Source: Elusimicrobia bacterium HGW-Elusimicrobia-3 (GTDB lineage: Bacteria; Elusimicrobiota; Elusimicrobia; Elusimicrobiales; UBA9959). Taken from it: a DNA stretch of 60,740 nucleotides. Positions within the stretch are counted from its first letter, which is position 1. Every line of letters begins with the position of its first letter. Of this stretch, positions 1 to 40,875 are shown in pieces. The stretch is taken from contig PHAL01000008.1 of the NCBI GenBank assembly GCA_002840355.1, positions 1 through 60,740 of the forward strand, given 5' to 3'. Below the pieces are notes generated by a model. It was not told the origin of the DNA and searched no databases. It saw only the letters and a program-made list of their open reading frames with translations. The translations under genes and the position numbers were made by a program.

Positions 1-588
1 ATAAACAGGAAGAACGCCGGCCTCTCGGCCAAGACGCCGCTCCTGGTCATCGGCCATCCGAGCGGCATACCGCTTAAACTCGCCGGCGACGCCAGCGTTA
101 TAGCCGCCAGCACCGACGTGTACGTGAACAACGGCGGCATGAGCATGAAATGGGTGGACAAGGGCCACGCCTTCCTGACCAACCTCGATACCTTCCACGG
201 CAATTCGGGCAGCCCGGTATTCAACCTGGACACGCTGCTGGTGGAAGGCATACTGGTGAGCGGCGACGAGGATTATGAGGCCGACCCGGACAATCCGGGC
301 AGCAACCGCGTGACCAACTACCCGCAGGACGCCGGCGCGGCCGACCTGGGCAAGGGTACAGGGGAAGTCTGCACCAAGATCTCCGTGCCGGCCGGCAGCA
401 TACCGGCCATAGAGCGCGAGGGCACCATGGTGGAGCTCAACCGCAAGGCCAAGGGCAAGCTGTACCCCGTCATGCTGGATATGCTGCGCAAGCGCGTGGC
501 CGACCAGGAGGGTCGGGAGCCGGCCATCATCCCTATCCCCAACTACGTGCCTCCGCAGAAGCCCCGTCCGGACGTGCAGTGGATCTGA
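1..588 (+). CDS. Trypsin-like serine peptidase, C-terminal part (5' truncated by window edge)
   Basis: The frame is open from base 1 to a TGA at 586-588, so the gene starts before the window. The core motif FHGNSGSPVFN (codons near 196-228) is the serine nucleophile region (GxSGSP) of S1/S46-like trypsin-fold peptidases. It follows a beta-rich stretch starting with VIGHPSG. The catalytic His and Asp would lie upstream and cannot be checked. The last ~65 residues form a charged tail ending in a proline-rich segment (IPIPNYVPPQKP). The same tail recurs as a broken copy at 9667-9863. Probably periplasmic or secreted by family habit, but the N-terminus is missing. No terminator hairpin is obvious before the next gene. 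Confidence 0.8.
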   Translation: MNRKNAGLSAKTPLLVIGHPSGIPLKLAGDASVIAASTDVYVNNGGMSMKWVDKGHAFLTNLDTFHGNSGSPVFNLDTLLVEGILVSGDEDYEADPDNPGSNRVTNYPQDAGAADLGKGTGEVCTKISVPAGSIPAIEREGTMVELNRKAKGKLYPVMLDMLRKRVADQEGREPAIIPIPNYVPPQKPRPDVQWI

Positions 589-679
589 TCCGCCGCGCCC
601 AAAGCGCCCGGGCCATCCTTTGCCGCCTATTGGTTATAATATCCATAGAGCAGCACTATCGTTTCACAACGGGGATAAA

Positions 680-1192
680 ATGAAGAAACTTATATTCATC
701 GCGTTTGCCGCTTTTTCGGTAATGCCGGTAAAGGCCGCCGACACGGCCGCTATTGGCGACCAGTGGAAGATACAGGCCAAGTCAGACCTGTCACAGGCCG
801 CGTACCTGTTCGTCATACACGCCGCGGACGGCTATATAAAGGACGACACACTGTTCCTGAACAATGCCGGCCCCAGCACGCTGTATTTCTCCGACAGGCC
901 CTACCGCCTGGCCGGCCACCTCGGAACTGACACGTTCCTGGCGGCCTGGAAGAAAGGCAGCGACAGCTTCGAAGCCAACCCGCCCAACGTGGTGATCTCC
1001 TTTCAGAAGGCCGGCAAACCCGTAGACATCACGGTGGAGATAGCCGAGCCGCAGTTCGACGGCAGCGACTTGAAGTTCAGGATAATCCGGGTACTGCAGG
1101 AAGACAAGGCGATAGCGCCCGGCAAGAAATTCAAGTTCAAACACCCCAGCCTGTTCATCGACGGCTATGGCTGCTGGGTATTCGGCTGCTGA
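680..1192 (+). CDS. Exported protein of unknown function (170 aa)
   Basis: I place the start at ATG 680 rather than an upstream in-frame ATG at 620, because MKKLIFIAFAAFSVMPVKA is a clean Sec signal peptide (cleavage after AKA/KAA-like residues near 20). The mature part carries the phrase TLYFSDRPYRLAGH followed by a PPN segment. From memory this occurs in a family of small exported hypothetical proteins in many diderm bacteria; no enzymatic role is known to me. The C-terminus is rich in Gly, Phe and Cys (GYGCWVFGC), with two cysteines that could form a disulfide. Stands alone on the plus strand, facing a minus-strand gene. Confidence 0.75.
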   Translation: MKKLIFIAFAAFSVMPVKAADTAAIGDQWKIQAKSDLSQAAYLFVIHAADGYIKDDTLFLNNAGPSTLYFSDRPYRLAGHLGTDTFLAAWKKGSDSFEANPPNVVISFQKAGKPVDITVEIAEPQFDGSDLKFRIIRVLQEDKAIAPGKKFKFKHPSLFIDGYGCWVFGC

Positions 1193-1207
1193 CCCCGCAA
1201 AACAAAA

Positions 1208-1227
1208 CCGCCGGGAGAGCCCGGCGG
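1208..1227 (-). terminator. Intrinsic terminator-like hairpin between convergent genes
   Basis: An 8-bp GC stem (ccgccggg / cccggcgg) with a 4-nt loop. Read on the minus strand it is followed by a T-rich tract (ttttgtttt), so it suits the minus-strand gene ending at 1269. It could also stop plus-strand reading from the gene ending at 1192. Confidence 0.6.
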
Positions 1228-1246
1228 TTCAGAGTGGCCGTCAAAT

Positions 1247-1270
1247 GGTCATATAATCACCGCGTCCCCT
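1247..1270 (+). repeat. Diverged copy of the dispersed 24-bp REP-like motif
   Basis: Reads gtcatataatcaccgcgtcccc, matching the motif found exactly at 24635-24658 and 26272-26295 with a few substitutions. It sits just after a terminator-like hairpin and overlaps the stop codon of the minus-strand gene at 1269. Confidence 0.5.
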
Positions 1271-1970
1271 AGCCCCTCCGGAAAAACAATCCATCATCCG
1301 CAAGCCGCACACAGGCCCCGGCCGGCACCTTGAACAATATATAACCGGCATTGTAGAGGTCCACGTATGACCCGACGGCGTTCACCAGCGATAATGCCGC
1401 CAGGTACGGGGAGTTCCAGCCAGATACGGCCGCCACGCCCAGAGGCAGGACGGAAAGCGCCAGGAAAGGCATGAGCAGCACAGCCAGCCACCGCCCGCGG
1501 CTCATTTCGCCATCATAGTGCGAATAGGCCACCCCGCCCGCCGGCCATAAACCGATAACGGACCTGTCCGTAAGACCAAAGGACGGCGCGGCCAGCACGT
1601 GGACCAACTCATGCGCCAGGAAATATACCGCCAGCGGCAGCGCCAGGGCCAACAGCAGCGACGCGAACAGAAGCAGCGCCAGCGCCGAACCTGCGGCCAC
1701 CGCTAAAACGCCATTGGCCGCCCACGGCGCCGCGTGGAAGAGAATGTCCACACCCGCCGCGAGCGTCCCGGCCAGCCATAGCCGCGGGCCCGATATTTCC
1801 GGCGGGGCAAATTCCAGCCACGCCGCCAGGGTCGCCCACGCGGCGGCCGCGCCGACCGGCAGCGCGGCCAGCTGGGTGCGCCACATAGACCCGGACTTTC
1901 TTAACAGTGTCCAGCCCGCTTCCGGCTTGAATGTAGCGCCGGCAGTTGTTTCCCCGTAGTGGAATCTCAT
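1269..1970 (-). CDS. DUF3267-type putative membrane zincin protease
   Basis: A 233-aa protein with several hydrophobic segments and the motif HELVH near residue 124, matching HExxH of the DUF3267 (putative zincin peptidase) family. A downstream NAVGSYVDL segment fits the family's usual N-x-x-G-S-x-x-D element, whose Asp is likely a third metal ligand. The two histidines lie at the end of a transmembrane helix, as expected for intramembrane zincins. The substrate is unknown. It is monocistronic, with hairpins on both sides. The first ~20 residues look cytosolic; an internal start is possible but less likely because the reading frame is coherent from the ATG at 1970. Confidence 0.75.
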   Translation of the reverse strand: MRFHYGETTAGATFKPEAGWTLLRKSGSMWRTQLAALPVGAAAAWATLAAWLEFAPPEISGPRLWLAGTLAAGVDILFHAAPWAANGVLAVAAGSALALLLFASLLLALALPLAVYFLAHELVHVLAAPSFGLTDRSVIGLWPAGGVAYSHYDGEMSRGRWLAVLLMPFLALSVLPLGVAAVSGWNSPYLAALSLVNAVGSYVDLYNAGYILFKVPAGACVRLADDGLFFRRG

Positions 1971-1988
1971 AGCGTCCCGATAATTCTA

Positions 1989-2030
1989 CCAAAACAAAAC
2001 CGCCAGGCATCCCCGGCGGTTCTGTTTTGG
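1989..2030. terminator. Symmetrical long hairpin, bidirectional terminator
   Basis: Near-perfect inverted repeat (ccaaaacaaaaccgcc ... ggcggttctgttttgg). A-rich and T-rich shoulders on either strand allow termination in both directions. It separates the degraded minus-strand gene at 2053-2411 from the DUF3267 gene downstream of it. Confidence 0.6.
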
Positions 2031-2052
2031 ATAAAGGATCGCGGCCAGTGCG

Positions 2053-2411
2053 TTAAGGGTTCACGCACGCCCCCTTAACGCATATACGGTCCCCCTTATA
2101 ATCTGTGTCCTTACCGCAGCCGGCGCTGGCCGCGGGCTCTTCCATCCCTAGCGCCCCGCGCAGTTTGGCGGCCAGCTCCTCGTTAACACCGGCCTCGACG
2201 CTATGCGCCGGAGGTCGCGGGACAGCAGTTTCTTGGAGACGCCGTCCATCAGCTTGCGGGCGGCGTCGGGCTGCGCTGCCTGGCGGGCGGTTTCGACCCG
2301 GGTTTCGGTCAGGACGGACAGCACTTTGGGCGGCTTTATACCGGCGGCGCGGCCCACGCTCACCAGCGCGGAGACGCTTTTCAGTAGGTCAGCCTTAACT
2401 TTCTCGCCCAA
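2053..2411 (-). pseudogene. Small frameshifted gene with Cys-rich C-terminus
   Basis: The reading frame from TTG 2411 gives a helical protein (KADLLKSVSALVSVGR...) and runs into low-quality sequence near 2200. From there a different minus frame gives a believable continuation (VNEELAAKLRGALGMEEPA, then CGKDTDYKGDRICVKGACVNP) ending in TAA at 2053-2055. The span is not a multiple of three, consistent with a single indel near 2195-2205. The open frame continues upstream of 2411 to a stop around 2490 without a convincing start, so the N-terminus (perhaps a signal peptide) may also be lost. The C-terminal CVKGACV resembles tails of small exported Cys-rich proteins. A sequencing error is an alternative to a true pseudogene. 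The end overlaps a 9-bp inverted repeat (cgttaaggg, 2051-2080). Confidence 0.5.
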
Positions 2412-2766
2412 CTGCTTCAGATCGGCGCGCAGCGCAAAACGCGGCCCGCCGGATGAGGAATGCCAACTCGATCCGCTGGCGGATCAATACGACAACATAG
2501 ACCCGCCTTCGCCTGAAGATTAACGCTGCACTCACCGGCGTCCCTCCCGGCGGAAGAACCGCGCGCAAACACGCGCGAACGCGGCCGGTTTTTGATTTTA
2601 TAAACAAAACGCGCGCCGCTCAGGCGAAGATTTTACGAAACGCGTTCAGGGAAGGGGAAAAAGGCGGGGGGAACTGACGATAACCGCGCTTATGTTTCGT
2701 GCAGTTCTGGAACCCGGATTAGCCTGCAATCAGGCCTGCGGCCGGTGGCCGCCCAGAGGTTTGTAT
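2412..2766. other. Gene-poor stretch, no confident feature
   Basis: Between the degraded gene and the weak frame at 2767. Short open frames exist on both strands but have arginine-rich, unstructured translations typical of shadow frames. I see no promoter, repeat or RNA here that I would defend. Confidence 0.5.
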
Positions 2767-3087
2767 ATGCCCGAAAGCCTTCTTTCAACCGCCGAGTTCG
2801 GTGCCGGCTTCTCCAAAGACTTTTTGCTGAAGGTCTTCTATTCTTTCTCCGTAATCGGCGCCTATCTGCCGGCCACGCGCCTGCTTTCAATCGTGTCAAG
2901 GCGCCGTATCGAGGACACGGTCCGCGAGTACATTGCCGCCAGGACGGCGGCGTATATCCGGGTTTTCAGGCGGTCAGCGTGTAACTATACGCAGGGGTTA
3001 ACTCGTCTGGGGGGAGATGCTGGGCGCCTTCTCCCGCCGCTCCTGAAGTTCCCGTTACGGCGCGGGCCGTTGATCCGGCCCGGCTAG
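2767..3087 (+). CDS. Doubtful small ORF (106 aa)
   Basis: An ATG at 2767 follows an AGAGG-like ribosome-binding sequence, and the first ~75 residues look protein-like (hydrophobic stretch LLKVFYSFSVIGAYL, then a basic helix). The C-terminal third is Arg/Pro/Leu-rich and reads like non-coding sequence. Its end overlaps the stop of the minus-strand permease gene by four bases. No family recognised. It may be a remnant whose frame has decayed. Confidence 0.25.
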   Translation: MPESLLSTAEFGAGFSKDFLLKVFYSFSVIGAYLPATRLLSIVSRRRIEDTVREYIAARTAAYIRVFRRSACNYTQGLTRLGGDAGRLLPPLLKFPLRRGPLIRPG

Positions 3088-5339
3088 CGTATCGCTATTT
3101 CCTGCCGGCCGTCCACGAACAGGACGTCATGAAGGCCGGTAAATGACGAGAGCATCCCCCCGTCCTTGCCCACGAGTTCTTCTGTATCGAAGCCCAGCAG
3201 GGTCAGGTCGGCTTCCGCCGAAGTGCGCACCACCTGGCTTTCAAAAAGGTCATCTCCGGAGTAGGGAGTGACCCGCAGCCTCTTCAGCGATATGGGCAGG
3301 CGCTCCGAAAGTATCCTTTCCGTCAGTTTTTCGCGCTGGCTCTCCATCTCCTCCTTGGGGAAGGAGGCAAAAACCGATATCTCGCAATCTTTCCAGTCCG
3401 GGTGGCCGGCTATGATGAAGGCCAGCAGGATCATCAGCCTTGCGTTGGCCTCGTCTTCCTGCGTGAGCCAGACATGCAGCTGGCGGCGGTAGCCGAAGCG
3501 GCGCGCGGAGGACCGCAGTATGCAGATGTTCATATCCAGCCCGGCGACGATGCGGCAGTTCTTGACGGTCTTGGCTACGGCGTCCGGCTCGCCGTGCGGG
3601 ATCTCGAAGAGCACGCTGTTGTTCTCAAGGCCGGAGATGCCGGCCACCTGGGTCATCTGCGCCAGGGCCGTCTCGTAGGTGGGCGAAACAACGGTATCCA
3701 CAAAGACGGCTGCCCGGCTGGAGGCGGTCATTTCTATAAGGCGCCGCAGCATCTGCCTGGATATCTTTGTGGTTTCCGCAGAGAGCTTGCCGGGGATGTA
3801 GTGGATAAGGGTGCTGAAGCCGTAGCGGTGCGAGATCCAGCGGAGGAAATCAAGGGCGGAGATGTGCTCCAGCGTGTCCTCGGACACCATGATAAAGGAG
3901 GGGCGCCAATCCTTGGCGTGGGAGGATGCGTACCGTTTTTGCGCGGCCATGTGCAGGTGGCGCGTAAGCTGAAAAAGCACGCCCTGGAAGATGGCCGTAA
4001 GGCTCTTGTCTTGCGTGGCGTAGCGGCTGAGGGCCAGGTGGAGCAGCGTCATTGAGGCGATGGCTATGATGGCGTAGAGCGGGCTCATCTGGAACATCAT
4101 CAGGATGCACATGACGGCGCCGAACAGCGAGAGGAACCAGCGCGTGCGGAAGGCCGGCCGGTAGGACGGGTTGGCGGCGAAATGCTCCAGGAAGGAGATC
4201 CCGCACAGCGCGCCGTAGGTGACCATGAAGAACATGCTTATTATCTGCGCGACCGCGTCTATATTCCCGAGCATTATCACGGCTATGGCCAGGACCCCTG
4301 ACACCAGCGTGGCGTTGTAGGGCTCGTTGACCTTCCCCCGGCCTTTTGCGATCAGCGCATTTAACTGCGCTCCCGGCAGAAGCCCGTCCTTGGCCAGGGC
4401 CTGCAGGGTGCGCGGGGCTATCATGAGCGAGCCGATGGCGGAGGAGATGGTCGCCGCCGCCAGGCCGAAATAGATCAGCGGGCCCCAGGCAGCTATTTTG
4501 GCCATTATGAACTGGTCCGAAGCCAGATTCTCCGGCAGCGCGAACCCTGCAAGTTTGTACACCACGGCCACGTAGACACCCATGCCGACAACCGTGGCAA
4601 GCATGGTCCCCGCCGGTATGGACCAGCGCGGGTTTTTCAGGTCCCCGGAAAGTCCCACACCGGCCGTCATGCCGGTGAACGCGGGGAAACAAATGGCGAA
4701 AACCTTCTGAAAGCTGTCTGGATCGGCAATATGGCCGAATATGGTCTGGGGGGCCTGCCCCGTGCCGGAACCCAGGAAGAAGGATACGAGCGATGCGACA
4801 AGCACGGCGAACACGCCCCAGAGCATGGAGACGCCCAGTGAGGCGCCCTTTTTAAGTATGACGTAGATGAGAAGCACGCCGAAGGGGACGCTTACCAGGC
4901 GCATGTCCGAGACCGGGAAAGGCAGGAGCCCCGTAGAGTTGATCCAGGAGAAGATGGGGGCGAAGGCCTCAGCGAAAGCGAGCAGGTAGAAGGCCACGGA
5001 AACCGCCTGGGAAAAATACAGAGCTATGCCTATGGTGCCGCCGATGGACCGCCCGAACGAGCGGCTGATGATGAAATATTCCCCGCCGCCTTCAACTTTC
5101 TGGTTGGTAGCTATCTCCGAGACGGCAAGGGCCGTCGGGATGGTGATCATATGGGCGATAAGGATTATTCCCAGCCCTCCCATCAGGCCGACGTGGCCGA
5201 CAGCGTAGCCGAAGCGCAGGAAAAGTATGGCGCCCAGGATGGTGGAGATGGCGGCCAGGAATACCGGCGCGGTGCCGAAGTCGTGGCCTCTTTCGGATTT
5301 CTCGTTTAGGGTGGTCATAGATTGGGCTATATTGTTCAA
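3084..5339 (-). CDS. SLC12/APC-type amino acid or cation-chloride permease
   Basis: A 751-aa inner-membrane transporter. The N-terminal ~450 residues carry about 12 hydrophobic helices with the APC-superfamily signature TM1 segment ISTILGAILFLRFGYAVG and TM3 segment GGGEYFIISRSFG, both characteristic of the SLC12 (cation-chloride cotransporter) branch. Residues ~480-751 form a soluble cytoplasmic domain, as in SLC12 proteins, probably alpha/beta USP-like. The family couples substrate uptake to ions; the substrate here cannot be predicted. The start at 5339 is the first ATG; a second ATG eight codons later is possible. Monocistronic. Confidence 0.85.
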   Translation of the reverse strand: MNNIAQSMTTLNEKSERGHDFGTAPVFLAAISTILGAILFLRFGYAVGHVGLMGGLGIILIAHMITIPTALAVSEIATNQKVEGGGEYFIISRSFGRSIGGTIGIALYFSQAVSVAFYLLAFAEAFAPIFSWINSTGLLPFPVSDMRLVSVPFGVLLIYVILKKGASLGVSMLWGVFAVLVASLVSFFLGSGTGQAPQTIFGHIADPDSFQKVFAICFPAFTGMTAGVGLSGDLKNPRWSIPAGTMLATVVGMGVYVAVVYKLAGFALPENLASDQFIMAKIAAWGPLIYFGLAAATISSAIGSLMIAPRTLQALAKDGLLPGAQLNALIAKGRGKVNEPYNATLVSGVLAIAVIMLGNIDAVAQIISMFFMVTYGALCGISFLEHFAANPSYRPAFRTRWFLSLFGAVMCILMMFQMSPLYAIIAIASMTLLHLALSRYATQDKSLTAIFQGVLFQLTRHLHMAAQKRYASSHAKDWRPSFIMVSEDTLEHISALDFLRWISHRYGFSTLIHYIPGKLSAETTKISRQMLRRLIEMTASSRAAVFVDTVVSPTYETALAQMTQVAGISGLENNSVLFEIPHGEPDAVAKTVKNCRIVAGLDMNICILRSSARRFGYRRQLHVWLTQEDEANARLMILLAFIIAGHPDWKDCEISVFASFPKEEMESQREKLTERILSERLPISLKRLRVTPYSGDDLFESQVVRTSAEADLTLLGFDTEELVGKDGGMLSSFTGLHDVLFVDGRQEIAIR

Positions 5340-10032: not shown

Positions 10033-10480
10033 ATGTGCGCTGTGGAATCCGCAGTTATCGTCGGCGGTCGCAAACCAGACGCCGCGGCTAATTGCCAGTC
10101 ACAGGGCAAGTACCGCGCCCGCAATCCGTTCAAGAACCCGCTCAACCGTCTGGTGCTGGACAACCTGGCAGAGTTTGAGGCCTGGCGGAAAGATGCTCCG
10201 GCCGGCAAACCCCGCCCGCATCGGTCTGTAATAACCGCCTTTGAAAAATTCAGTGAATGCGGAGTACTGCGCTACGGCGCCGCGCTACCGGCTGCACCGA
10301 ATGCGGGTATGACGTCTTTGTGGCTTTCTCCTGCAAGCGCAGGGGCCTGTGCCCGAGTTGCGACGCCAAGCGCTCTGCCATAATTGTGGGCTCTGCCTTG
10401 GACCGCCAGCTGCCGACGGCGCGCGGTAGACTTAAGGCCTATTGCGGCCTGGGCCCTGAGGCCCTTACCTACTCAAGTTC
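10033..10480 (+). pseudogene. IS91-family transposase remnant (N-terminal zinc-binding domain, frameshifted)
   Basis: From ATG 10033 the frame gives YRARNPFKNPLNRLVLDN and then FEKFSECGVLRYGAA, the usual N-terminus of IS91-type Y2 (HUH) transposases. Near 10280-10300 the frame shifts, and the new frame continues CTECGYDVFVAFSCKRRGLCPSCDAKRSA, the family's Cys4-type zinc-binding domain (CxxC...C...CxxC). The remaining ~250 residues, including the HUH and tyrosine motifs, are missing. An 11-G run (10020-10030) lies directly before the start codon. Together with the neighbouring duplicate fragment, this marks the left edge of an acquired island. Confidence 0.8.
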
Positions 10481-10499
10481 TTTGAGGTATAACATCAGC

Positions 10500-10606
10500 G
10501 TAGTCTTCCTTGTAATTTGGGGGATTGGCCCCAGAGTATCCACGATCCGACCTTAATCGGATGTATCCAGGGAAAGCAAAAAAGTCACTTTGCTTTCCCT
10601 TTTTTT
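10500..10606 (+). ncRNA. Structured RNA element with intrinsic terminator (copy 1)
   Basis: Shares an ordered set of blocks with 39862-39970. Both begin with cttgtaat and a G/C hairpin. Next come AG-Y-ATCCA, a 6-bp stem around the invariant loop ccttaa (here atccga/tcggat), and gta-W-ccaggg. Both end in a terminator hairpin with a T-run (here gggaaagcaaa / tttgctttccc). The ccttaa-loop stem has different base pairs in the two copies but keeps pairing, which is compensatory change. A possible -10 (tataac) lies near 10488. It ends 58 nt before the first micropeptide gene, so it is either an independent small RNA or a terminating leader (attenuator or riboswitch) for that gene. It matches no riboswitch class I know. 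Confidence 0.7.
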
Positions 10607-10664
10607 ATCGGCAAATTGCGGAATGCGAAACAATCTTCGGGATTATAGCTCAGGGGGAAATAAA

Positions 10665-10823
10665 ATGGACTTCAAACGGATGTTTTTTATAGGGTTCTAT
10701 CTTGTGGCAGGTCTTTTCTTTACTCATGAAGTAACCGCTTTTGACCGGCTTGGAGTCGCAAGCCTCGGGGTAACTGGTCAGCCCACCGAACACCCCAACT
10801 GGGAAACGCGAGATAAAGTGTAA
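10665..10823 (+). CDS. Exported micropeptide A, candidate precursor or signal peptide of the YcaO locus
   Basis: 52 aa, starting at ATG 10665 with AGGGGG eight bases upstream. Residues 1-24 form a signal-like segment (basic start MDFKR, hydrophobic FFIGFYLVAGLFF, then EVTA|F as a plausible cleavage site). The mature part would begin FDRLG and end with the block PTEHPNWET plus a short charged tail. The same architecture and block recur in the convergent gene 10897-11046. It is preceded by a structured RNA with terminator and followed by a palindromic terminator shared with its paralogue. No known family recognised. Its proximity to a YcaO enzyme suggests a precursor peptide, and to a peptide-binding protein and kinase, a signal; both are inference. 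Local GC is lower than in flanking genes. Confidence 0.75.
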   Translation: MDFKRMFFIGFYLVAGLFFTHEVTAFDRLGVASLGVTGQPTEHPNWETRDKV

Positions 10824-10834
10824 GTTTAACTAGT

Positions 10835-10885
10835 CCCAATATAAAAAGCCGCAAAGAAATGTTCTTTGCGGCTTTTTATATTGGG
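10835..10885. terminator. Perfect 51-bp palindromic bidirectional terminator
   Basis: Two 24-nt arms are exactly complementary around the 3-nt centre atg. The core is a GC stem (gccgcaaagaa / ttctttgcggc) with A-tract and T-tract shoulders on each side, so it works for both convergent micropeptide genes. Confidence 0.9.
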
Positions 10886-10896
10886 AAGAGTGTGTT

Positions 10897-11046
10897 CTAC
10901 TTCTGCGTTTCCCAGTTAGGATGCTCGGTTGGTGTGGGTTCGGTGCTGGTTGTGGCGCCAAGCTTGTCGAAAACAGTAACTTCCCCGGTGAAAACAAGAC
11001 CAGCGACAAAGTAAAAACAGATGAGAAATAACCTTTTGATTTTCAT
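10897..11046 (-). CDS. Exported micropeptide B, paralogue of micropeptide A
   Basis: 49 aa on the minus strand, ATG complement at 11044-11046 and TAG complement at 10897-10899. GGGGGA lies ~9 nt upstream of the start. It is aligned end to end with micropeptide A: MKIKRLFLICFYFVAGLVFT, then GEVTVFDKLG, a variable linker rich in Thr, and the identical block PTEHPNWET near the C-terminus. The two share the hydrophobic leader, the V-T-x-F-D-[RK]-L-G junction and the tail, and differ mainly in the linker. This pattern fits conserved leader/export and recognition ends with a variable middle. A near-consensus promoter (11080-11107) drives it and overlaps the start of the YcaO gene. Confidence 0.75.
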   Translation of the reverse strand: MKIKRLFLICFYFVAGLVFTGEVTVFDKLGATTSTEPTPTEHPNWETQK

Positions 11047-11079
11047 GTCCAAAGTCCCCCGTAAAACGAATATAAATAT

Positions 11080-11107
11080 ATTATAATTAATGGGATGTCC
11101 GCGTCAA
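11080..11107 (-). promoter_or_regulatory. Sigma-70-type promoter for micropeptide B
   Basis: On the minus strand: TTGACG (11107-11102), a 16-nt spacer, and TATAAT (11085-11080). It lies 34 nt upstream of the micropeptide B start codon. The -35 box is inside the first codons of the YcaO gene, so transcription of the two genes is likely to interfere. Confidence 0.65.
11082..11087 (+). promoter_or_regulatory. Possible -10 box of the YcaO gene, overlapping the divergent -10 box
   Basis: TATAAT on the plus strand, eight bases before ATG 11095 and sharing bases with the divergent TATAAT. If used, transcription would begin at or next to the start codon, giving a leaderless mRNA; no Shine-Dalgarno is visible before 11095. 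No convincing -35 box is seen. Confidence 0.35.
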
Positions 11108-12030
11108 CATTGGCAAGGTTTATAAATCCGAAAACCGGGCCGATTATATCTATAGTTTCTACACCTTATCCAGGCTTCTTTAGCAGGCGGTTCTGGCAAT
11201 CTGCTGCCCGGTTGCACCCTGATTGCGGCGCTTGCGGGATGAAAACAAAGATCTTTGTGCCTTGCGGGGGAGGCTGGAGCCGTGACAAGGAAGTCAGCCA
11301 GTGTAAGGCCGTATCTGAAGCGATAGAACGATGGGCTTTCAGATATTATTGCCGTGGCGAGAAGGGGAATGCCGGGCTGGATATAGATCCGACGAGCAAT
11401 GGTTTCGCCGCTTTACCCGCTTTTCTTGGAGAAGACCGCCTTATAACGGGAGCATTTTGTGAAGCTGTTGAAAGATGGGCTTTGGGCCGGATGTGGGATC
11501 ACGGGGACATCGGGTTGATGGAGACAGAGTCTCTGGAGAGTCCGGCGACGGAGCTTTTTGAATGTTCCAAGGGAAAGCTACATTGTTTCATGACAAAATT
11601 CCTGGCTGCAAAGCCTGGACAGGTATGCAGGGAGGAAGTGACCTTTTGCCTCTGCATATTTGAAACCAGCGAAGGGGGGGCGATTCCCGGTTCTGCTTGC
11701 GGGACGGACCGCTCTTCGGTTTTTGAGCGGGCCGCAGCCGAAGCCTTTGTAAATCTTTCCGCGTTCAACAGCATGCGGAAGAAAAAAATCGGGGTGTTCG
11801 AAGATATTCTAGAAAAGCGGCTGCATTTTTTTGGAAGCCGCCCGGACGGGTATAAAGAGGTTTCCGGGAAGCTCAACAGAAGCGGCGGTACTGCTTCCTG
11901 CGAGGTCCCGGAGGTAATATTCTCGAAAAGGCTTTCCGGGCCATGGGAACCGGAAGTGCTGGTTCACAGGGTCCTGGTGGACAATGCCAGGCTGGTTACC
12001 TTTGGCGGTGCGGACCGCTTTGTGCTCTAA
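11095..12030 (+). CDS. YcaO-domain protein (candidate peptide-modifying enzyme)
   Basis: A 311-aa cytoplasmic protein with the order of YcaO landmarks. Residues 6-22 LARFINPKTGPIISIVS give the usual N-terminal strand. KAVSEAIERWAF (71-82) is the first ATP-binding ExxER helix, DPTSNGFAA (98-106) the NPTxxGxAA loop, and FCEAVERWAL (121-130) the second ExxER helix. YcaO enzymes use ATP to activate peptide amides in azoline, thioamide and amidine formation. Odd points: it is ~100 residues shorter than typical, the usual Ser before the first ExxER is Lys, the GKG-like loop is GGG, and no C-terminal PxPxP is present, so activity may differ from cyclodehydration. Two nucleotides separate it from the solute-binding-protein start. 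Cys-rich N-terminus (CGAC). Confidence 0.8.
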   Translation: MSASTLARFINPKTGPIISIVSTPYPGFFSRRFWQSAARLHPDCGACGMKTKIFVPCGGGWSRDKEVSQCKAVSEAIERWAFRYYCRGEKGNAGLDIDPTSNGFAALPAFLGEDRLITGAFCEAVERWALGRMWDHGDIGLMETESLESPATELFECSKGKLHCFMTKFLAAKPGQVCREEVTFCLCIFETSEGGAIPGSACGTDRSSVFERAAAEAFVNLSAFNSMRKKKIGVFEDILEKRLHFFGSRPDGYKEVSGKLNRSGGTASCEVPEVIFSKRLSGPWEPEVLVHRVLVDNARLVTFGGADRFVL

Positions 12031-12031
12031 T

Positions 12032-13576
12032 ATGAAAAAAGCGGCATATTGTTTTCTTCTTCTGGTCTTTTGCGGTTTCAATTCCTACGCGGGAGAGATA
12101 ATGAAAAAAACCCCTTTGCGTTATTGGTTCTGGTATCTGCCGACTACCTTTGACACGGCAAAAGCTGACAGGGCCGGAGTCATGGCCGTGGCGAAAAACA
12201 TCTATGCCCCCCTGGTATCTACCTTCCTGGACGGCCGGGCGCAGGGGATGATAGCTGAAAAGTGGGCGGTAGGCAAAGAAGGGAAGACCTGGCGGTTTAC
12301 GATCCGGAAAGGCCTCATTTTTGAGGACGGCTCTCCGATAACCCCGGAAGTAGTTCTTCAGAATTTCCGCCGCATCCTCTGGCTGACCCGGAAAGACGGG
12401 CTGCTTTTCAACTCTCTCCTGCCCGAGGTCGCGAAATGGGAGAACTATTCCGCGCCGCTCAAGAGCCTCTATGTCGATGGAAACGACGTGATCTTTGAAT
12501 TCAGCAGGCGCCCGTTGAACCTGTTCGAAGAGATCAGTATGCCAATTTATGGAATTGCCAGTCCCAAGTGTTTCGATGCCGAGGGCAATTGGAAGGAATT
12601 ATTCTGCTCCGTGGCTTCTGGTCAGTACCGGGTAAAAGAGATAACTCCGGAAAAGGTTGTTCTGCAGTCGCGGCACATATTCGAGGAGACTGACGCCGCC
12701 CCTGAGGTGGTGGAGATTAGGGCCAGGGTGGACAAGAACACCGGCGAGGAAATGCTGGCCGGGACCGGAGACCTTACTGTTATGGCCAGCCTTGACTTGA
12801 CCGAAGAGATAATGGAAAAGACTCGGACATCAGAGTTTAAACTCGCGTATGAGCCGGCGGCACGCATGCATTTTATGGAGCTGAACGCTAAAAAAAATGT
12901 TTTTGCGGATAGAGCCCTGCGTCAATCCGTGAGGGACACATTTTTGTGGCTGCTCCGTAAAAACGAGGCGTTCGCTGCGGGGGCTGAGCTGGACCCTTCT
13001 TTTATCCCTAAAGGGGGGGTCGGGCATGTGGGCTTCGATATAGCGGGCGGAGGGAAGGTTAAAAAATCCGGAGGGGGGGAGGCGGTAGTCCTGCTCACCC
13101 CGAAACCGCCATCTCCGAAGAGCAAGGGGCAGAAAATACAGCTGGCTCTCGAGGACGCCATACTGGAAACCTTGCGGCTGCATTCCATCAAGCCTCGCAT
13201 TATACGGTGCGACGGCGGAGAGCTGATAGAGCGCCGCCGCAGAAACGATTTCGATCTCCTGTTCCGGGGTTCGGGCGTGTCGATAGACGACCCATACGCC
13301 GCACTCCGGATGATGTTCATGAGCGACATCGGGGCATGTATCCCGGACCCTTCCCACACCATTCCCGCAATGATTGTAAAAGCGGAGGCTACGGATGATT
13401 CTGCCACCCGCAAACAGCTCGCTGAAAAGATAAACAGGAGTATTTACGAAGAGGCTTCGGTGGTAACTTACGCCCATTCCAGCATTGTCTACATTTGCAA
13501 CAGCAATGTGGATATTTCACGGATAAATCTGTTCTCGGACCCTATCGAGTTCCGCGCCGTAAATTGGCGCCAGTAG
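12032..13576 (+). CDS. Peptide-type ABC transporter solute-binding protein (SBP family 5)
   Basis: 514 aa. The start at ATG 12032 gives the signal peptide MKKAAYCFLLLVFCGFNSYA; an upstream in-frame ATG at 11984 lies within the YcaO gene. The canonical family-5 opening is present: KNIYAPLVSTFLDG, then AEKWAVGKEGKTWRFTIRKG and FEDGSPITPEVV. This family binds oligopeptides, nickel or opines in the periplasm; no permease or ATPase genes are nearby. Without a transporter, a sensory job for the downstream kinase is plausible (inference). Cys at position 14 is not in a good lipobox. It follows the YcaO gene by one base, and its GC is lower than the genome around it. Confidence 0.85.
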   Translation: MKKAAYCFLLLVFCGFNSYAGEIMKKTPLRYWFWYLPTTFDTAKADRAGVMAVAKNIYAPLVSTFLDGRAQGMIAEKWAVGKEGKTWRFTIRKGLIFEDGSPITPEVVLQNFRRILWLTRKDGLLFNSLLPEVAKWENYSAPLKSLYVDGNDVIFEFSRRPLNLFEEISMPIYGIASPKCFDAEGNWKELFCSVASGQYRVKEITPEKVVLQSRHIFEETDAAPEVVEIRARVDKNTGEEMLAGTGDLTVMASLDLTEEIMEKTRTSEFKLAYEPAARMHFMELNAKKNVFADRALRQSVRDTFLWLLRKNEAFAAGAELDPSFIPKGGVGHVGFDIAGGGKVKKSGGGEAVVLLTPKPPSPKSKGQKIQLALEDAILETLRLHSIKPRIIRCDGGELIERRRRNDFDLLFRGSGVSIDDPYAALRMMFMSDIGACIPDPSHTIPAMIVKAEATDDSATRKQLAEKINRSIYEEASVVTYAHSSIVYICNSNVDISRINLFSDPIEFRAVNWRQ

Positions 13577-13591
13577 CCGCAGCTTGTACTA

Positions 13592-15163
13592 ATGCACAAA
13601 AAACAGCTTATTGTTTCCTGGATTGCAGGTGCGGTCCTGATATCCGGTGTATTCTATGCCGCGGTGGCATGGTTGTGGACTGCTGTGTCCGAGTCGCACG
13701 CCGCTTCGGTCGAGACTCAGGTTGTTTCTGCTTTGTCAAACGACCTTGCGGAAGGGAACTTGTTCAAGCTGGGGGTTACTCTTTCAAAACTTAAGCGTGA
13801 TGGTATACTGCGTTTTGCGGAAATCCGGCAACTAGGTAAAGACGGGGGAAACAGTCTCGTATATAGAACGCAAGGGGGTGTCTCTCCGACAGGCGAGTAT
13901 CTTGCCGGATTTAACTGCGGTGAAAGGCGCCAGTTGGAGGGGAGCACTCATGGTGGGGTCAGCCTCATTACTACCTTGCCGAGTAATAACCTGGATGTGG
14001 CTTGCTCGACTCTCTTTATAATCTCGGATTTGCCGCGGGAGCTAAGCCTCTTCAAGAGTCGCTTGATAGTTTCATTTGGCGGGTTGCTCGTGGTTCTATT
14101 TGGAGCATTTTTTTGGCTTACCATATACTGGTATCGCAAAATTCTGGCTCTTGAAACTTCTAATGTTCTTATGCGTGTAGAGAAAGACGTGGAGATGGGG
14201 CGTATGGTGTCTCAATTGGCGCACGACATACGGTCGCCGCTGGCGGCGCTGGGGGCGGCGGCTAAAGGACTGGATATCCCGCAGGAGCAGCGCGGTATGA
14301 TAGATGGGGCCGTGGCGCGCATGCAGGGCATCGCCGACGACCTGTTGGCGCGTTACCGCGCGCCTTCCGCTGGGCCGGCCAAACCTAAAACCTCGGTTCT
14401 CGCTCTGGGTGGTCTTGTGGAACAGGTGGTCGCGGAGAAGCGCCTGCAGCACAAGGACAAGGTCGGCATCAGTATAGATTTCTCTCCCGGCGAGGCGGAA
14501 CTTAAGGCTTCCATTGAGCCTACAGAATTTCAGCGCCTGATCTCCAACCTCATAAATAACTCGGTGGAAGCTTTCAGCGGTGAGGGCGTTGTTTCTGTCG
14601 CCCTGTCCGCCGTGGACCATAAGGTCCTGCTGACCGTAAAGGACAACGGCAAAGGTATACCGCCGGAGATCCTGGCCAGGCTGGGGCAGAAGGGCGAAAC
14701 GCATGGCAAGGCCGGCGGCACCGGACTGGGCGTTTACCACGCGCGCAAAACGGTGGAGGCCTGGGGCGGCAGCTTTAAGATAGAATCCGAAGCCGGCAAA
14801 GACACCGCAGTTACGCTTGAACTGCCGGCGGCAACTGTTAAAACCGTACCGGCGCGCGCGGTGCTGCTGGACGACGACCTGCTGGTGCATATGAACTGGA
14901 AAATGGCCGCCAGGGCAGCCGGTGTGGATTTCAAGGCGTATAAAACCCCGGAGGAACTTGTCACCGACGCTGAGGCCCTGCCCAAAGATACGCCGATCTA
15001 TATAGACTCCGAGCTGGGCGGCGACGTTAAGGGCGAAGACACGGCCCAGGCCCTGCATGCGAAAGGTTTTACTGACCTCACCATGGCCACCGGCCACGCC
15101 CCCGAAAAATTCTCTCACCTCCCCTGGCTTAAAGTAACCGGCAAAGAGCCGCCTTGGAATTGA
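13592..15163 (+). CDS. Hybrid sensor histidine kinase with C-terminal receiver-like domain
   Basis: 523 aa. TM1 is at 7-30 and TM2 at ~157-180, enclosing a ~125-residue extracytoplasmic sensor region. HisKA follows with phospho-acceptor His211 (QLAHDIRSPLAAL), then HATPase motifs NLINNSVEAF (N box), DNGKGIP (G1) and GGTGLGVYHARK (G2). The last ~110 residues are receiver-like: LLDDDLLVH gives the acidic pocket and PIYIDSELGG a candidate phospho-Asp. The start is 15 nt after the SBP stop. The codon composition is low-GC up to about 14200 (sensor and TMs) and clearly high-GC after it (kinase core), as if a local kinase core had received a foreign sensor. No DNA-binding output partner lies next door. 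Confidence 0.85.
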   Translation: MHKKQLIVSWIAGAVLISGVFYAAVAWLWTAVSESHAASVETQVVSALSNDLAEGNLFKLGVTLSKLKRDGILRFAEIRQLGKDGGNSLVYRTQGGVSPTGEYLAGFNCGERRQLEGSTHGGVSLITTLPSNNLDVACSTLFIISDLPRELSLFKSRLIVSFGGLLVVLFGAFFWLTIYWYRKILALETSNVLMRVEKDVEMGRMVSQLAHDIRSPLAALGAAAKGLDIPQEQRGMIDGAVARMQGIADDLLARYRAPSAGPAKPKTSVLALGGLVEQVVAEKRLQHKDKVGISIDFSPGEAELKASIEPTEFQRLISNLINNSVEAFSGEGVVSVALSAVDHKVLLTVKDNGKGIPPEILARLGQKGETHGKAGGTGLGVYHARKTVEAWGGSFKIESEAGKDTAVTLELPAATVKTVPARAVLLDDDLLVHMNWKMAARAAGVDFKAYKTPEELVTDAEALPKDTPIYIDSELGGDVKGEDTAQALHAKGFTDLTMATGHAPEKFSHLPWLKVTGKEPPWN

Positions 15164-15451: not shown

Positions 15452-17290
15452 ATGAAAGGCTGGACCGGCTACATACTCAGGGTTAATCTCACCGACAAGA
15501 CCTGGAAGAAAGAATCATTTACCGAAGAATTCGCCCAGAAATGGGTGGGCGGGCGCGGTTTCGCCGCCAAGATCCTTTTCGACGAACTCAAGCCCGGCAT
15601 AGACCCGCTCGGCCCGGAGAACAAGCTGGTGGTGGCCCTCGGCCCGATAGCCGGCATACCGGCCCCCAATACCGGCAAGGTGGTAGTAGCCGCCAAGAGC
15701 CCGCTCACCGGCTTCTACGGCGACGGCAATTTGGGCTCCAACGTTTCCAGCCAGCTGCGCAAGGCCGGCTACGACGCCATGATAATAGAGGGCGCGGCCG
15801 ACAAACCGACCTATCTCAATATCGAGGACGACAAGGTGGAATTCCTCGACGCCGCCGAGATGTGGGGCAAGGGCACCTATTTCTCCAACGAATACATTTA
15901 CAAGAAACACGGCAAGAACTCCGGCGTGCTGAACATCGGCCAGGCCGGCGAGAACAAGGTGCTGTTCGCCGTTATCCGCAGCCTCGAGGGCCGCGCCGGC
16001 GGCCGCCCCGGCATTGGCGCCGTGATGGGCTCCAAAATGCTCAAGGCCATAGTCGTAAAAGGCACCAAACAGATACCGCAGGCCGACCCCGAACTGATGC
16101 GCAAGCTCGGCATAGAAGGTCTGAAGAAGGCCCATGAGCTGGACCAGGCGAGCGGCTGGTCGAAGCAGAGCACCGACGCCGTGCTGGCCTGGTGCAACGA
16201 GGTCAACGGCCTGCCGGTGCAGAACATGCGGCATACCGCACACCCCGAAGCCTGGAAGCTGGACGGCGAGCGCCTCAACGACGCCCGCATAGCCACTTAC
16301 GGCTGCCCCAGCTGCACCATGCACTGCGGCATCACCATACACGACAAGGAAGGCCGCGAGAGCGAGCTGGACTACGAGAACATCGGCATGCTGGGCCCGA
16401 ACATCAACGTGTTCGACCTCAAGCAGGTGGGCTCGCTCAATTATTTGTGCGACGACTACGGCCTCGACACCATCTCCGCCGGCGCGGTGCTGGGCTTCTA
16501 CGGCGACGCCATAGAGCGCGGCGCCACGAAGGGCGACTTCAAATTCGGCGACGCCGAGAAGGGCAAGACGCTGCTCTGGGACATAGCCACCCGCACGGGC
16601 GAAGCCGGCAACTTGCTGGCCGACGGCGCCCTGAAGGCCGCCAAGGTCTACGGCAAGAATTCGGCCGACTATGCCATGCAGGTCAAAGGCCTGGAGATGG
16701 CCGCCTACAACTGCAAGTCCATACCCGGCCAGGCGCTGGCCTTCGGTGTGGCGGCCATAGGCGGCCACCACCGCGAGGCGTGGATCATCACCTTCGAGCT
16801 CAAGCACAGCAAGCGCGAGAGCTACGGCCCTGAGAAGGCGGCCAAGGTGATAGAGCTGCAGCGCATACGCGGCGGCCTGTTCGAGATGCTGGTGGCCTGC
16901 CGTTTCCCCTGGGTGGAAGTGGGCTACGAGCTGGAGAACTATCCCAAATTCTTCAACGCCGCCACCGGCCTGGACTGGACGCTGGACAATTTCTGGACGG
17001 CGGCCGACCGCGGCTACGCCATGATCAAGCTGCATTACCTGCGCGAGTTCCCGGCGGCCACCCGCAAGGACGACTACCCGCCGGCGGTCTGGTTCGACAA
17101 GGCCAACGCCGACACCGAGGGCCCGCAGAAAGGCGTGGTGCTGGAGCACGACAAGTACGACTCGCTGCTGCAGCATTATTACGACCAGCGCGGCTACGAC
17201 CATCGCGGTATACCCACCATGGAGACCCTGAAGAAGCTGGGCCTCGAGGCGGAGGCAGCCGAGGCGGCCAAGGTGGCTAGCCTGAGCTGA
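15452..17290 (+). CDS. Aldehyde:ferredoxin oxidoreductase (tungsten pterin enzyme)
   Basis: 612 aa, the normal length of the family. The N-terminal domain with GYILRVNLTDKTW, FVGGRGFAAKIL-like (WVGGRGFAAKILFDEL) and SPLTGFYGDGNLG is the AOR_N tungstopterin fold. The [4Fe-4S] ligands are CPSCTMHC around residue 290, with the fourth Cys probably in LVACRFPW near 490. It oxidises aldehydes to acids with ferredoxin as acceptor in the cytoplasm of anaerobes. The start at 15452 follows GAGGAGG. The stop overlaps the MoaD-like gene start by one base, consistent with a cofactor-supply partner. The substrate is unknown. Confidence 0.9.
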   Translation: MKGWTGYILRVNLTDKTWKKESFTEEFAQKWVGGRGFAAKILFDELKPGIDPLGPENKLVVALGPIAGIPAPNTGKVVVAAKSPLTGFYGDGNLGSNVSSQLRKAGYDAMIIEGAADKPTYLNIEDDKVEFLDAAEMWGKGTYFSNEYIYKKHGKNSGVLNIGQAGENKVLFAVIRSLEGRAGGRPGIGAVMGSKMLKAIVVKGTKQIPQADPELMRKLGIEGLKKAHELDQASGWSKQSTDAVLAWCNEVNGLPVQNMRHTAHPEAWKLDGERLNDARIATYGCPSCTMHCGITIHDKEGRESELDYENIGMLGPNINVFDLKQVGSLNYLCDDYGLDTISAGAVLGFYGDAIERGATKGDFKFGDAEKGKTLLWDIATRTGEAGNLLADGALKAAKVYGKNSADYAMQVKGLEMAAYNCKSIPGQALAFGVAAIGGHHREAWIITFELKHSKRESYGPEKAAKVIELQRIRGGLFEMLVACRFPWVEVGYELENYPKFFNAATGLDWTLDNFWTAADRGYAMIKLHYLREFPAATRKDDYPPAVWFDKANADTEGPQKGVVLEHDKYDSLLQHYYDQRGYDHRGIPTMETLKKLGLEAEAAEAAKVASLS

Positions 17291-39861: not shown

Positions 39862-39970
39862 AATGTAGTCGCAGCCCTTGTAATCCCCCGATCAGGCGGG
39901 GGAGCATCCACCGGCGGGCCTTAACCCGCTGTAACCAGGGGAAACGAACACCGTTCGTTTCTCTTTTTTT
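39862..39970 (+). ncRNA. Structured RNA element with intrinsic terminator (copy 2)
   Basis: Matches 10500-10606 block by block: cttgtaat, a C/G hairpin (ccccc-gatcagg-cggggg), agcatcca, stem gcggg-ccttaa-cccgc, gtaaccaggg. The terminator hairpin gaaacgaac / ttcgtttc ends in seven T. The two copies differ in sequence in every stem but keep pairing. A possible promoter has TATAGAAT at 39851-39858. The next gene starts 11 bases after the T-run, which strongly suggests control by premature termination in an mRNA leader. Ligand or effector unknown. Confidence 0.7.
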
Positions 39971-39981
39971 ATTTCGGTCGG

Positions 39982-40875
39982 ATGAACATAAGAATGAACA
40001 AAACCCTGCTCTTCTCCCTCCTCTTCCCGGCGCTGGCCGCCGCGGCCTCCGCGCAGTCCGAGCTTTCGGCCGGCGACCCGCTGGCCGGCACCGGCCCCTT
40101 CTCGGACCCGGCCTTCCAGGACTTCCTGGAAACCTCAGAGGACGGCTACCTGAATTCCAAGAACACGATGAATGTGCGCTCCGACTTCCGCGATTTCCGC
40201 GACGCCGTCATCTCCGCCCCCGTACTTTCGCTCAAGACCCCGCCCCCCGCCGAGGCCGCCCGCACGCGTCCCGAGGACAGGGCTGGCCTGCCGGTACTGC
40301 CCGCCGGCCACTACAAGGTGACTTTCGCCGGCGACAGCGGTCCGGTGGGTTCTTACGTGCGCCCGCTCAGCGGCGCCGGCGCCCGCTACGCCAGGGAATA
40401 CGTGCTGTTGGGCGTTTCCGTCAAGGGCGATTCCTACGATAAATTGCTGCCCCGGCTGGAGGCCGTCGGCCTGCGCTTCGCCGGCGAAAAGACCTCTTAT
40501 TCCGCCAGGAACAAGCGCACCGTGATACTCGGCTGGGCCCCTCTCGCCAGCCTGTCCCGCATCTCCAAGGTGGCGGGCGTGACCGGCGTGGTGGTGGAGA
40601 AGCGCAGTTCGGGCGTGCCGCTCAAAGCCCGCGTGCGCTTCACGCTCAAGGTGCCCTACCAGAACAGGCCCAACGCCTTCGTCCCGGCCTTCCTCAAGCG
40701 CCTCACCGACGAAGGCGGCTTCGCCGCGGAGAACTGGTTCCGCCTGCCGCATAAGGGCGCGGACTCCCGGTTCAGCGTGTTCGACGTGGTCGGCACGATG
40801 CCGGTAGACATGATAGGCGAGCTCTCCCGCTCCCCGTTCGTGGCCTCCGTGGAATTCAACGACAACTCCCTCTGA
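39982..40875 (+). CDS. Exported protein with two inhibitor-I9-like alpha/beta repeats
   Basis: 297 aa; ATG 39982 follows GGTCGG, and an internal ATG at 39994 is also possible. Signal peptide LLFSLLFPALAAAASA. After a ~75-residue linker come two similar halves. Each has a long strand, a helix, and a closing phrase of the form L-x-x-[IL]-[SG]-x-[LV]-x-x-x-x-x-V-x-x-V-x-V (ISKVAGVTGVVVEK and IGELSRSPFVASVEF), as in subtilisin-propeptide or ferredoxin-like domains. No protease domain is present. It sits directly after the structured RNA terminator, so its expression is probably governed by that element. Function unknown. Confidence 0.65.
   Translation: MNIRMNKTLLFSLLFPALAAAASAQSELSAGDPLAGTGPFSDPAFQDFLETSEDGYLNSKNTMNVRSDFRDFRDAVISAPVLSLKTPPPAEAARTRPEDRAGLPVLPAGHYKVTFAGDSGPVGSYVRPLSGAGARYAREYVLLGVSVKGDSYDKLLPRLEAVGLRFAGEKTSYSARNKRTVILGWAPLASLSRISKVAGVTGVVVEKRSSGVPLKARVRFTLKVPYQNRPNAFVPAFLKRLTDEGGFAAENWFRLPHKGADSRFSVFDVVGTMPVDMIGELSRSPFVASVEFNDNSL

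Follow-up and report, generated by a model that had tools for sequence, protein, structure and literature searches.

In the LuxP-LuxQ, ChvE-VirA and TorT-TorS systems, a periplasmic solute-binding protein (SBP) that has no transporter passes the state of its ligand to a membrane kinase, and in peptide signalling of the nisin-NisK, subtilin, Agr and ComX kind a ribosomal precursor, a modification enzyme, export and a membrane kinase work together. Here we describe a locus that resembles both. It lies on contig C57 (60,740 nt, analysed over its whole length and called the window below) of Elusimicrobia bacterium HGW-Elusimicrobia-3, whose 2.88 Mb genome is 97% complete and kin to the Elusimicrobia bins GWB2_63_16, GWA2_66_18 and RIFOXYA12_FULL_51_18. 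Between positions 10665 and 15163 the window encodes two paralogous micropeptides, a divergent YcaO enzyme, an SBP of the SBP_bac_5 family and a histidine kinase; SBP and kinase are encoded together without a permease, as in the LuxPQ type, and all five open reading frames (ORFs) were verified. This set of peptide, enzyme, SBP and kinase, which often stands behind a riboswitch, seems to be a chemical signalling system of an undescribed kind.

Gene content of the locus

From left to right, the locus comprises the following features.

10435-10466, + strand: putative operator, a two-box element made of AGGCCTAT, then TGGGCCCTGAGGCCCTT (pattern match at 10450-10466)
10488-10493, + strand: candidate -10 box TATAAC of the riboswitch transcript, spaced from operator and aptamer as are TATACTAT-type boxes elsewhere
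10505-10575, + strand: 2'-dG-II purine riboswitch aptamer (RF03165; 85.0 bits, gathering threshold 60; full length, 1-71 of 71)
10569-10607, + strand: intrinsic terminator (hairpin -17.4 kcal/mol, z -4.35), its 5' arm AGGGAAAGC being also the 3' strand of P1
10665-10823, + strand: micropeptide 1, 52 amino acids (aa), with Sec-type leader, VTAFDRLG and PTEHPNWET; ribosome site CAGGGGGAAATAAA
10834-10885, bidirectional: terminator between the convergent peptide genes (-33 kcal/mol, z -10.2)
10897-11046, - strand: micropeptide 2, 49 aa from ATG, with VTVFDKLG and PTEHPNWET; ribosome site GGGGGA; divergent from the YcaO gene
11095-12030, + strand: YcaO-like (type I) enzyme, 311 aa (PF02624 at family level; HHalign to YcaO-II)
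12032-13576, + strand: SBP_bac_5 solute-binding protein, 514 aa (PF00496, 83.2 bits, cut-off 32.4)
13592-15163, + strand: membrane histidine kinase with receiver-like C-terminus (HisKA 27.8 bits, HATPase_c 79.7 bits)

An initial annotation, made from the sequence without database searches, had listed these genes and the tight tandem of the last three, and the coordinates bear out both; it did not include the 2'-dG-II riboswitch, the operator shared with other loci or the likely sigma-54 output, all described below.

The module recurs across Elusimicrobiota

The order YcaO-SBP-kinase, with a Sec-leader TxFDxxG micropeptide directly upstream, was found at all five intact loci of this type (type I), which belong to four Elusimicrobiota genomes. 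With a background rate of 0.0037 comparable small leader ORFs per 100 nt, this recurrence confirms that the gene arrangement exceeds chance. Type I is rare, occurring in 6 of the 341 genomes of the phylum, one fragment and one divergent version included. A second YcaO lineage, known from eight genomes and reaching another class, shows the order peptide-SBP-YcaO-kinase at 8/8 loci, and all eight leader peptides are of a DFQEKL type with a related F-x-x-x-L/I-x-K stretch. In a third case (L098) riboswitch, peptide, SBP, YcaO (32.6 bits) and kinase follow one another. The micropeptide and the SBP-kinase pair that the initial annotation expected beside YcaO homologues elsewhere were therefore present at every intact type-I (5/5) and second-lineage (8/8) locus, and the refuting condition set out in that annotation left its proposal standing.

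For a wider comparison of neighbourhoods, 60 RF03165 loci were retrieved. Two kinds of genes are prominent behind the riboswitch, namely ComEC-like or exported-protein genes and micropeptide-enzyme-SBP-kinase modules, of which the riboswitch heads dozens in relatives, the micropeptide starting about 155 nt past the aptamer core. A micropeptide was present at 26 of the 30 riboswitch loci with a kinase versus 1 of the 21 without, and that single locus is a module cut by the contig end. The module enzyme is usually a short radical S-adenosylmethionine (SAM) protein, whose best NCBIfam match is the YydG peptide epimerase (3.5e-15; below cut-off, 56 vs 300 bits), and sometimes a SPASM radical SAM protein or a YcaO of one of several lineages; across modules, peptide families track enzyme families. 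YcaO, which had been taken for the enzyme of the system, is one of several interchangeable kinds.

Taken together, the gene sets point to a modular family of peptide-signalling systems in Elusimicrobiota, in which a modified, exported peptide would be captured by the SBP and read out by the kinase. We give this reading a probability of about 0.6.

The host genome itself carries a sister module on contig C81 (L019), where TldD-/TldE-like genes, recognized by eye, and another radical SAM gene lie upstream of the riboswitch module (reverse complement 581-4165) and possibly serve peptide processing. At L065, L069, L074, L077, L084, L090 and L107, additional genes, for a GNAT acetyltransferase, a beta-lactamase-like serine hydrolase or a nitroreductase-like protein, separate the radical SAM gene from the kinase gene and are likely to provide further tailoring.

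The micropeptides

Judging from their sequence, both micropeptides are real genes: each has its ribosome site, and the product shows a hydrophobic stretch and an N-terminus rich in K/R; an alternative TTG start would lengthen micropeptide 2 to 51 aa. They had been described as paralogous exported-type peptides of 49 and 52 aa with an identical block, PTEHPNWET: both ORFs are present, each contains the block, and export is predicted from the Sec-type leader. Within the block 4 of 9 codons differ between the two genes, all synonymously, while the aligned leader parts show 12 synonymous and 8 non-synonymous differences (8/27 codons change the amino acid), indicating that the block has been held by selection and does not reflect recent copying.

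The other intact type-I loci, in G014, in G053 and two in GWA2_66_18, each have a homologous peptide immediately upstream of YcaO. What the six type-I peptides have in common is T-x-F-D-x-x-G just past the hydrophobic part, the remainder differing by species. No PTEHPNWET-like block was found in the homologous peptides outside the host genome, so that the block, proposed earlier as a hallmark to be searched for in other genomes, is confined to this one, and the conserved part is the T-x-F-D-x-x-G motif. In GWA2_66_18 the peptide is divergent from YcaO, in the position of micropeptide 2, which also holds the peptide at L050 and L052. Like micropeptide 1, the peptides of G014 and G053 run collinear with YcaO and follow the riboswitch; the window combines both arrangements.

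The YcaO-like enzyme

The window protein had been called a divergent YcaO enzyme, and its family placement holds better for the group than for this member. Alone it scores 17.9 bits against PF02624, where the cut-off is 25.7; relatives at 41-46% identity exceed that value (L050, 34.0; L051, 30.5; L053, 30.3 bits). All five type-I members match the family, and three of the five pass the threshold. In HHalign, type I aligned with the YcaO-II profile (88%, E 3e-6); the canonical YcaO profile of the phylum gave no support (2.7%), and no YcaO was retrieved when the profile was run against PDB sequences. Residues E75, E78, R79, E123, E126, R127, E216 and R292 are invariant across the five members and may correspond to the glutamate helices (ExxER pairs) that hold ATP and Mg in solved YcaO structures. 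The AlphaFold2 model is modest (pLDDT 65.6); in a structure search with it, E. coli YcaO (4q85/4q86) recurred among the top matches at E about 0.05 and a TM score of 0.34, a comparison with the YcaO fold that is only suggestive. Membership in YcaO, as judged from these profiles, is good at family level and weak for the window protein alone.

A score under the Pfam cut-off and a predicted structure of modest confidence would also suit a protein that acts on a housekeeping target and stands next to peptide, SBP and kinase by accident. This seems very improbable to us because the arrangement recurs: three YcaO lineages are found in this cassette and each is accompanied by a peptide family of its own, and the rare and patchy type-I YcaO (6/341 genomes) is unlike a housekeeping gene.

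The presumed receptor pair and its predicted output

The SBP had been described as an oligopeptide-type binding protein without a transporter, and its SBP_bac_5 match agrees with this: no permease gene was found beside it at the loci examined, and the permeases of the host genome are on other contigs. Its relatives in the PDB profile search are AapF, OppA and NikA, both peptide and nickel binders; its structure model is poor (49), and a plasmid search returned only distant SBPs of about 25% identity. If the SBP binds the mature peptide, the segments of interest as ligand candidates are FDRLG to the C-terminus, PTEHPNWETRDKV and PTEHPNWETQK.

A kinase homologue comes after the SBP at all type-I loci. 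The kinase was earlier held to be a hybrid. Its histidine kinase part is clear from HisKA and HATPase_c, but no Pfam receiver domain was found in its C-terminus; D, D, T and K occur in the last ~108 aa at positions resembling those of a receiver, and a Response_reg match below threshold (19.9 bits) was seen in the homologue from G053, so the kinase is only likely to be hybrid.

An NtrC-type regulator adjoins or follows the kinase in G014, G053, L166, L067 and L078, from which we infer that the kinase feeds this regulator. Beside the regulator in G014 and on host contig C10 lie a sigma-54-like gene (TIGR02395, 62 bits; PF04552, 60 bits) and a protein of 59-60 aa with a HisKA-like H-box (15 bits, weak), which is perhaps a phosphotransfer step. 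In 674 kb, 29 strict sigma-54 sites were found versus 0.4 expected, most of them placed about 40-80 nt ahead of a start codon, the genes behind them encoding exported proteins, Cys-rich precursors that neighbour SPASM maturases, or the sigma-54-like protein; the host genome has 11 versus 1 in the control. The sigma-54/NtrC pair, with secreted proteins and Cys-rich peptide clusters under it, is the likely output. On host contigs C10 (L122, 4714-7440) and C81 (L019), strict sigma-54 sites precede two Cys-rich precursors that resemble those of ribosomally synthesized and post-translationally modified peptides (RiPPs), with a SPASM maturase and an M50-type protein.

Sigma-54-driven Cys-rich precursors with a SPASM maturase near several modules, the RiPP-type enzymes of the modules and the common control with secreted hydrolases (see below) would also fit an antimicrobial RiPP, with SBP and kinase serving self-sensing or immunity as in lantibiotic autoregulation. 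However, the peptides are short, not markedly cationic and without conserved Cys, and the module includes neither an immunity gene nor an ABC exporter gene; we regard this explanation as quite unlikely.

Riboswitch and putative operator

The 5' arm of the terminator overlaps the 3' strand of P1. This geometry is shared by 42 of 43 such riboswitches and is the layout expected of an ON-switch in which the ligand holds P1 and prevents the terminator. By family membership the ligand is predicted to be 2'-deoxyguanosine. RF03165 was found in 69 of 199 relatives and in 31/31 genomes of the same genus, with 1-9 copies where present. Since a strong bidirectional terminator follows micropeptide 1, the riboswitch transcript should end mainly after this gene, and for the same reason we consider it unlikely that the riboswitch drives the YcaO operon of the window directly.

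A two-box element, RGGYCYA ... TAGGYCYWWDGGCCCTT, lies upstream of nearly all 2'-dG-II aptamers examined, about 25 nt before the -10 box. The second box alone has 26 matches in the host genome versus 10 in a reversed control, several of them ahead of exported hydrolases, proteins like ComEC or metallo-beta-lactamases (MBL), clostripain-like peptidases and others. The shared operator before secreted hydrolase and MBL/ComEC-like genes would place micropeptide 1 in a regulon of secreted, partly DNA-directed functions.

A second 2'-dG-II riboswitch (39873-39943, 74.5 bits) with a terminator lies in the window before an exported protein of 297 aa of unknown family (39982-40875); the same gene comes after the riboswitch in G031 (L096). 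At L020, L062, L082, L104, L115 and L117, ComEC-like genes follow 2'-dG-II riboswitches that lack the usual terminator, and there the ribosome site GGAGGTGGATATG after the aptamer could pair with ATCCACCTCC in the aptamer, which suggests translational control.

Genetic setting

The GC content at third codon positions is 0.48-0.64 in the module (11095-15163) versus 0.87 in the adjacent aldehyde ferredoxin oxidoreductase gene (15452-17290); together with the patchy distribution, this suggests that the module has moved horizontally or was recently acquired. At 10257-10553, immediately upstream of and overlapping the operator region, lies what is left of an IS91-type transposase zinc-binding domain (PF14319, 34 bits).

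Proposed mechanism

The gene set, its conservation, the pairing of enzymes with peptides, the riboswitch/terminator geometry and the sigma-54 sites are read from sequence, and they would fit the following course of modification, export, cleavage, binding and kinase output, the ligand included. Micropeptide 1 would be made only with the shared operator active and the terminator prevented by 2'-deoxyguanosine or a closely similar purine nucleoside. The short Sec-leader precursor would be modified in the cytoplasm by its dedicated enzyme, here the YcaO-like protein, exported and trimmed near FDxxG. On the outside, the SBP would bind the mature C-terminal part of the peptide, which varies among species and here contains PTEHPNWET. 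Once loaded, the SBP would act on the membrane kinase, and the kinase, through the NtrC-type regulator and the divergent sigma-54, would switch on secreted proteins and Cys-rich peptide clusters.

Several observations weigh against this scheme. The signal peptidase site is non-canonical in four of the six type-I peptides (V at -1); the peptides of radical SAM modules have good-looking sites (xQA). FD(x)G follows the signal peptide in 23 of 174 signal-bearing ORFs of these genomes versus 5 in a control stretch, and being so frequent in unrelated exported proteins it may be a general mark for export, processing or sorting rather than a docking site for YcaO. The micropeptides contain no conserved Cys and the module no E1-like, TfuA or exporter gene, and for these reasons the YcaO chemistry cannot be named. 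The divergent YcaO locus of G042 (C15) reads riboswitch-SBP-YcaO-kinase with no visible peptide, the GWA2_66_18 type-I loci are without the riboswitch, and the window has neither a regulator gene nor a strict sigma-54 site. The FD motifs right behind the signal peptide of exported proteins, of the (V)DFDGG or KFD kind, were seen at L067, L010 (8060), L200, L022, L167 (189), L140 and others.

The poor signal peptidase sites, together with the hydrophobic N-terminal segment, would suit small membrane proteins that are not released and tune kinase or SBP directly, in the manner of MgrB, and the SBP, whose family also includes nickel and metallophore binders, would then sense an ordinary nutrient or metal chelate. 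Such a role, however, leaves unexplained the dedicated modifying enzyme in nearly every module and the enzyme-linked change of peptide families, and the peptide C-termini vary among species yet are kept within the host genome; we hold it to be unlikely, and still prefer a released, modified peptide.

More tentatively, and with somewhat less than even confidence, the modules may form a phylum-wide, interchangeable pheromone platform in Gram-negatives. Sec-exported micropeptides, varied enzymes (YcaO lineages, YydG-like and SPASM radical SAM proteins) and their own SBP-kinase receptors would be gated by the 2'-deoxyguanosine riboswitch and the shared operator, confining signalling to times when lysed neighbours or imported DNA supply DNA breakdown products, with a sigma-54/NtrC answer. 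If true, this would be the first cell-to-cell signalling system for a largely uncultured phylum, RiPP-type enzymes could serve Sec-exported pheromones that are read via an SBP, and the 2'-dG-II riboswitch would gain a regulon with testable logic. The modules supply peptide, enzyme and receptor in matching combinations, which would let specificity be tested by swapping, and dozens of enzyme-substrate pairs are offered to chemists.

Comparison with known systems

The initial annotation knew of no described system with this set. Our literature search likewise found no relevant paper linking YcaO with Elusimicrobiota and none that joins RiPP, SBP and kinase in this form, which does not in itself prove novelty.

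The module differs from LuxPQ in that its SBP, a relative of OppA and NikA, is not homologous to LuxP and in that the expected ligand is a ribosomal peptide of the same module, with a modifying enzyme. Nisin-NisK, subtilin, Agr and ComX, in contrast, use dedicated exporters or AgrB-like proteases and direct binding to the kinase, with no SBP and no riboswitch, and their enzymes are LanB/C, AgrB and ComQ where the module has YcaO or a YydG-like radical SAM protein. With YcaO-dependent RiPPs (thiazole/oxazole-modified microcins, bottromycin/ItfB-type amidines, thioamides) it shares a YcaO-type enzyme beside a short precursor, and the stand-alone YcaO resembles the amidine-forming type (ItfB, PMC10352776). 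Unlike these, its precursor has a Sec-type leader, E1-like and TfuA partners and an ABC/PCAT exporter are absent, and SBP and kinase are coupled to it. The YydFG epipeptide system resembles the sister modules in the short radical SAM protein, best matched by YydG, and the short precursor alongside; the match is below cut-off, however, the precursor has a Sec leader, and SBP and kinase follow. As in the described 2'-dG-II regulon, the same RNA class precedes ComEC-like genes here, and the gene lists in PMC8872408 do not mention peptide-enzyme-SBP-kinase modules. In its presumed working, then, the module can be likened to LuxPQ-type sensing by SBP and kinase joined to RiPP pheromones, but homology places it in neither group.

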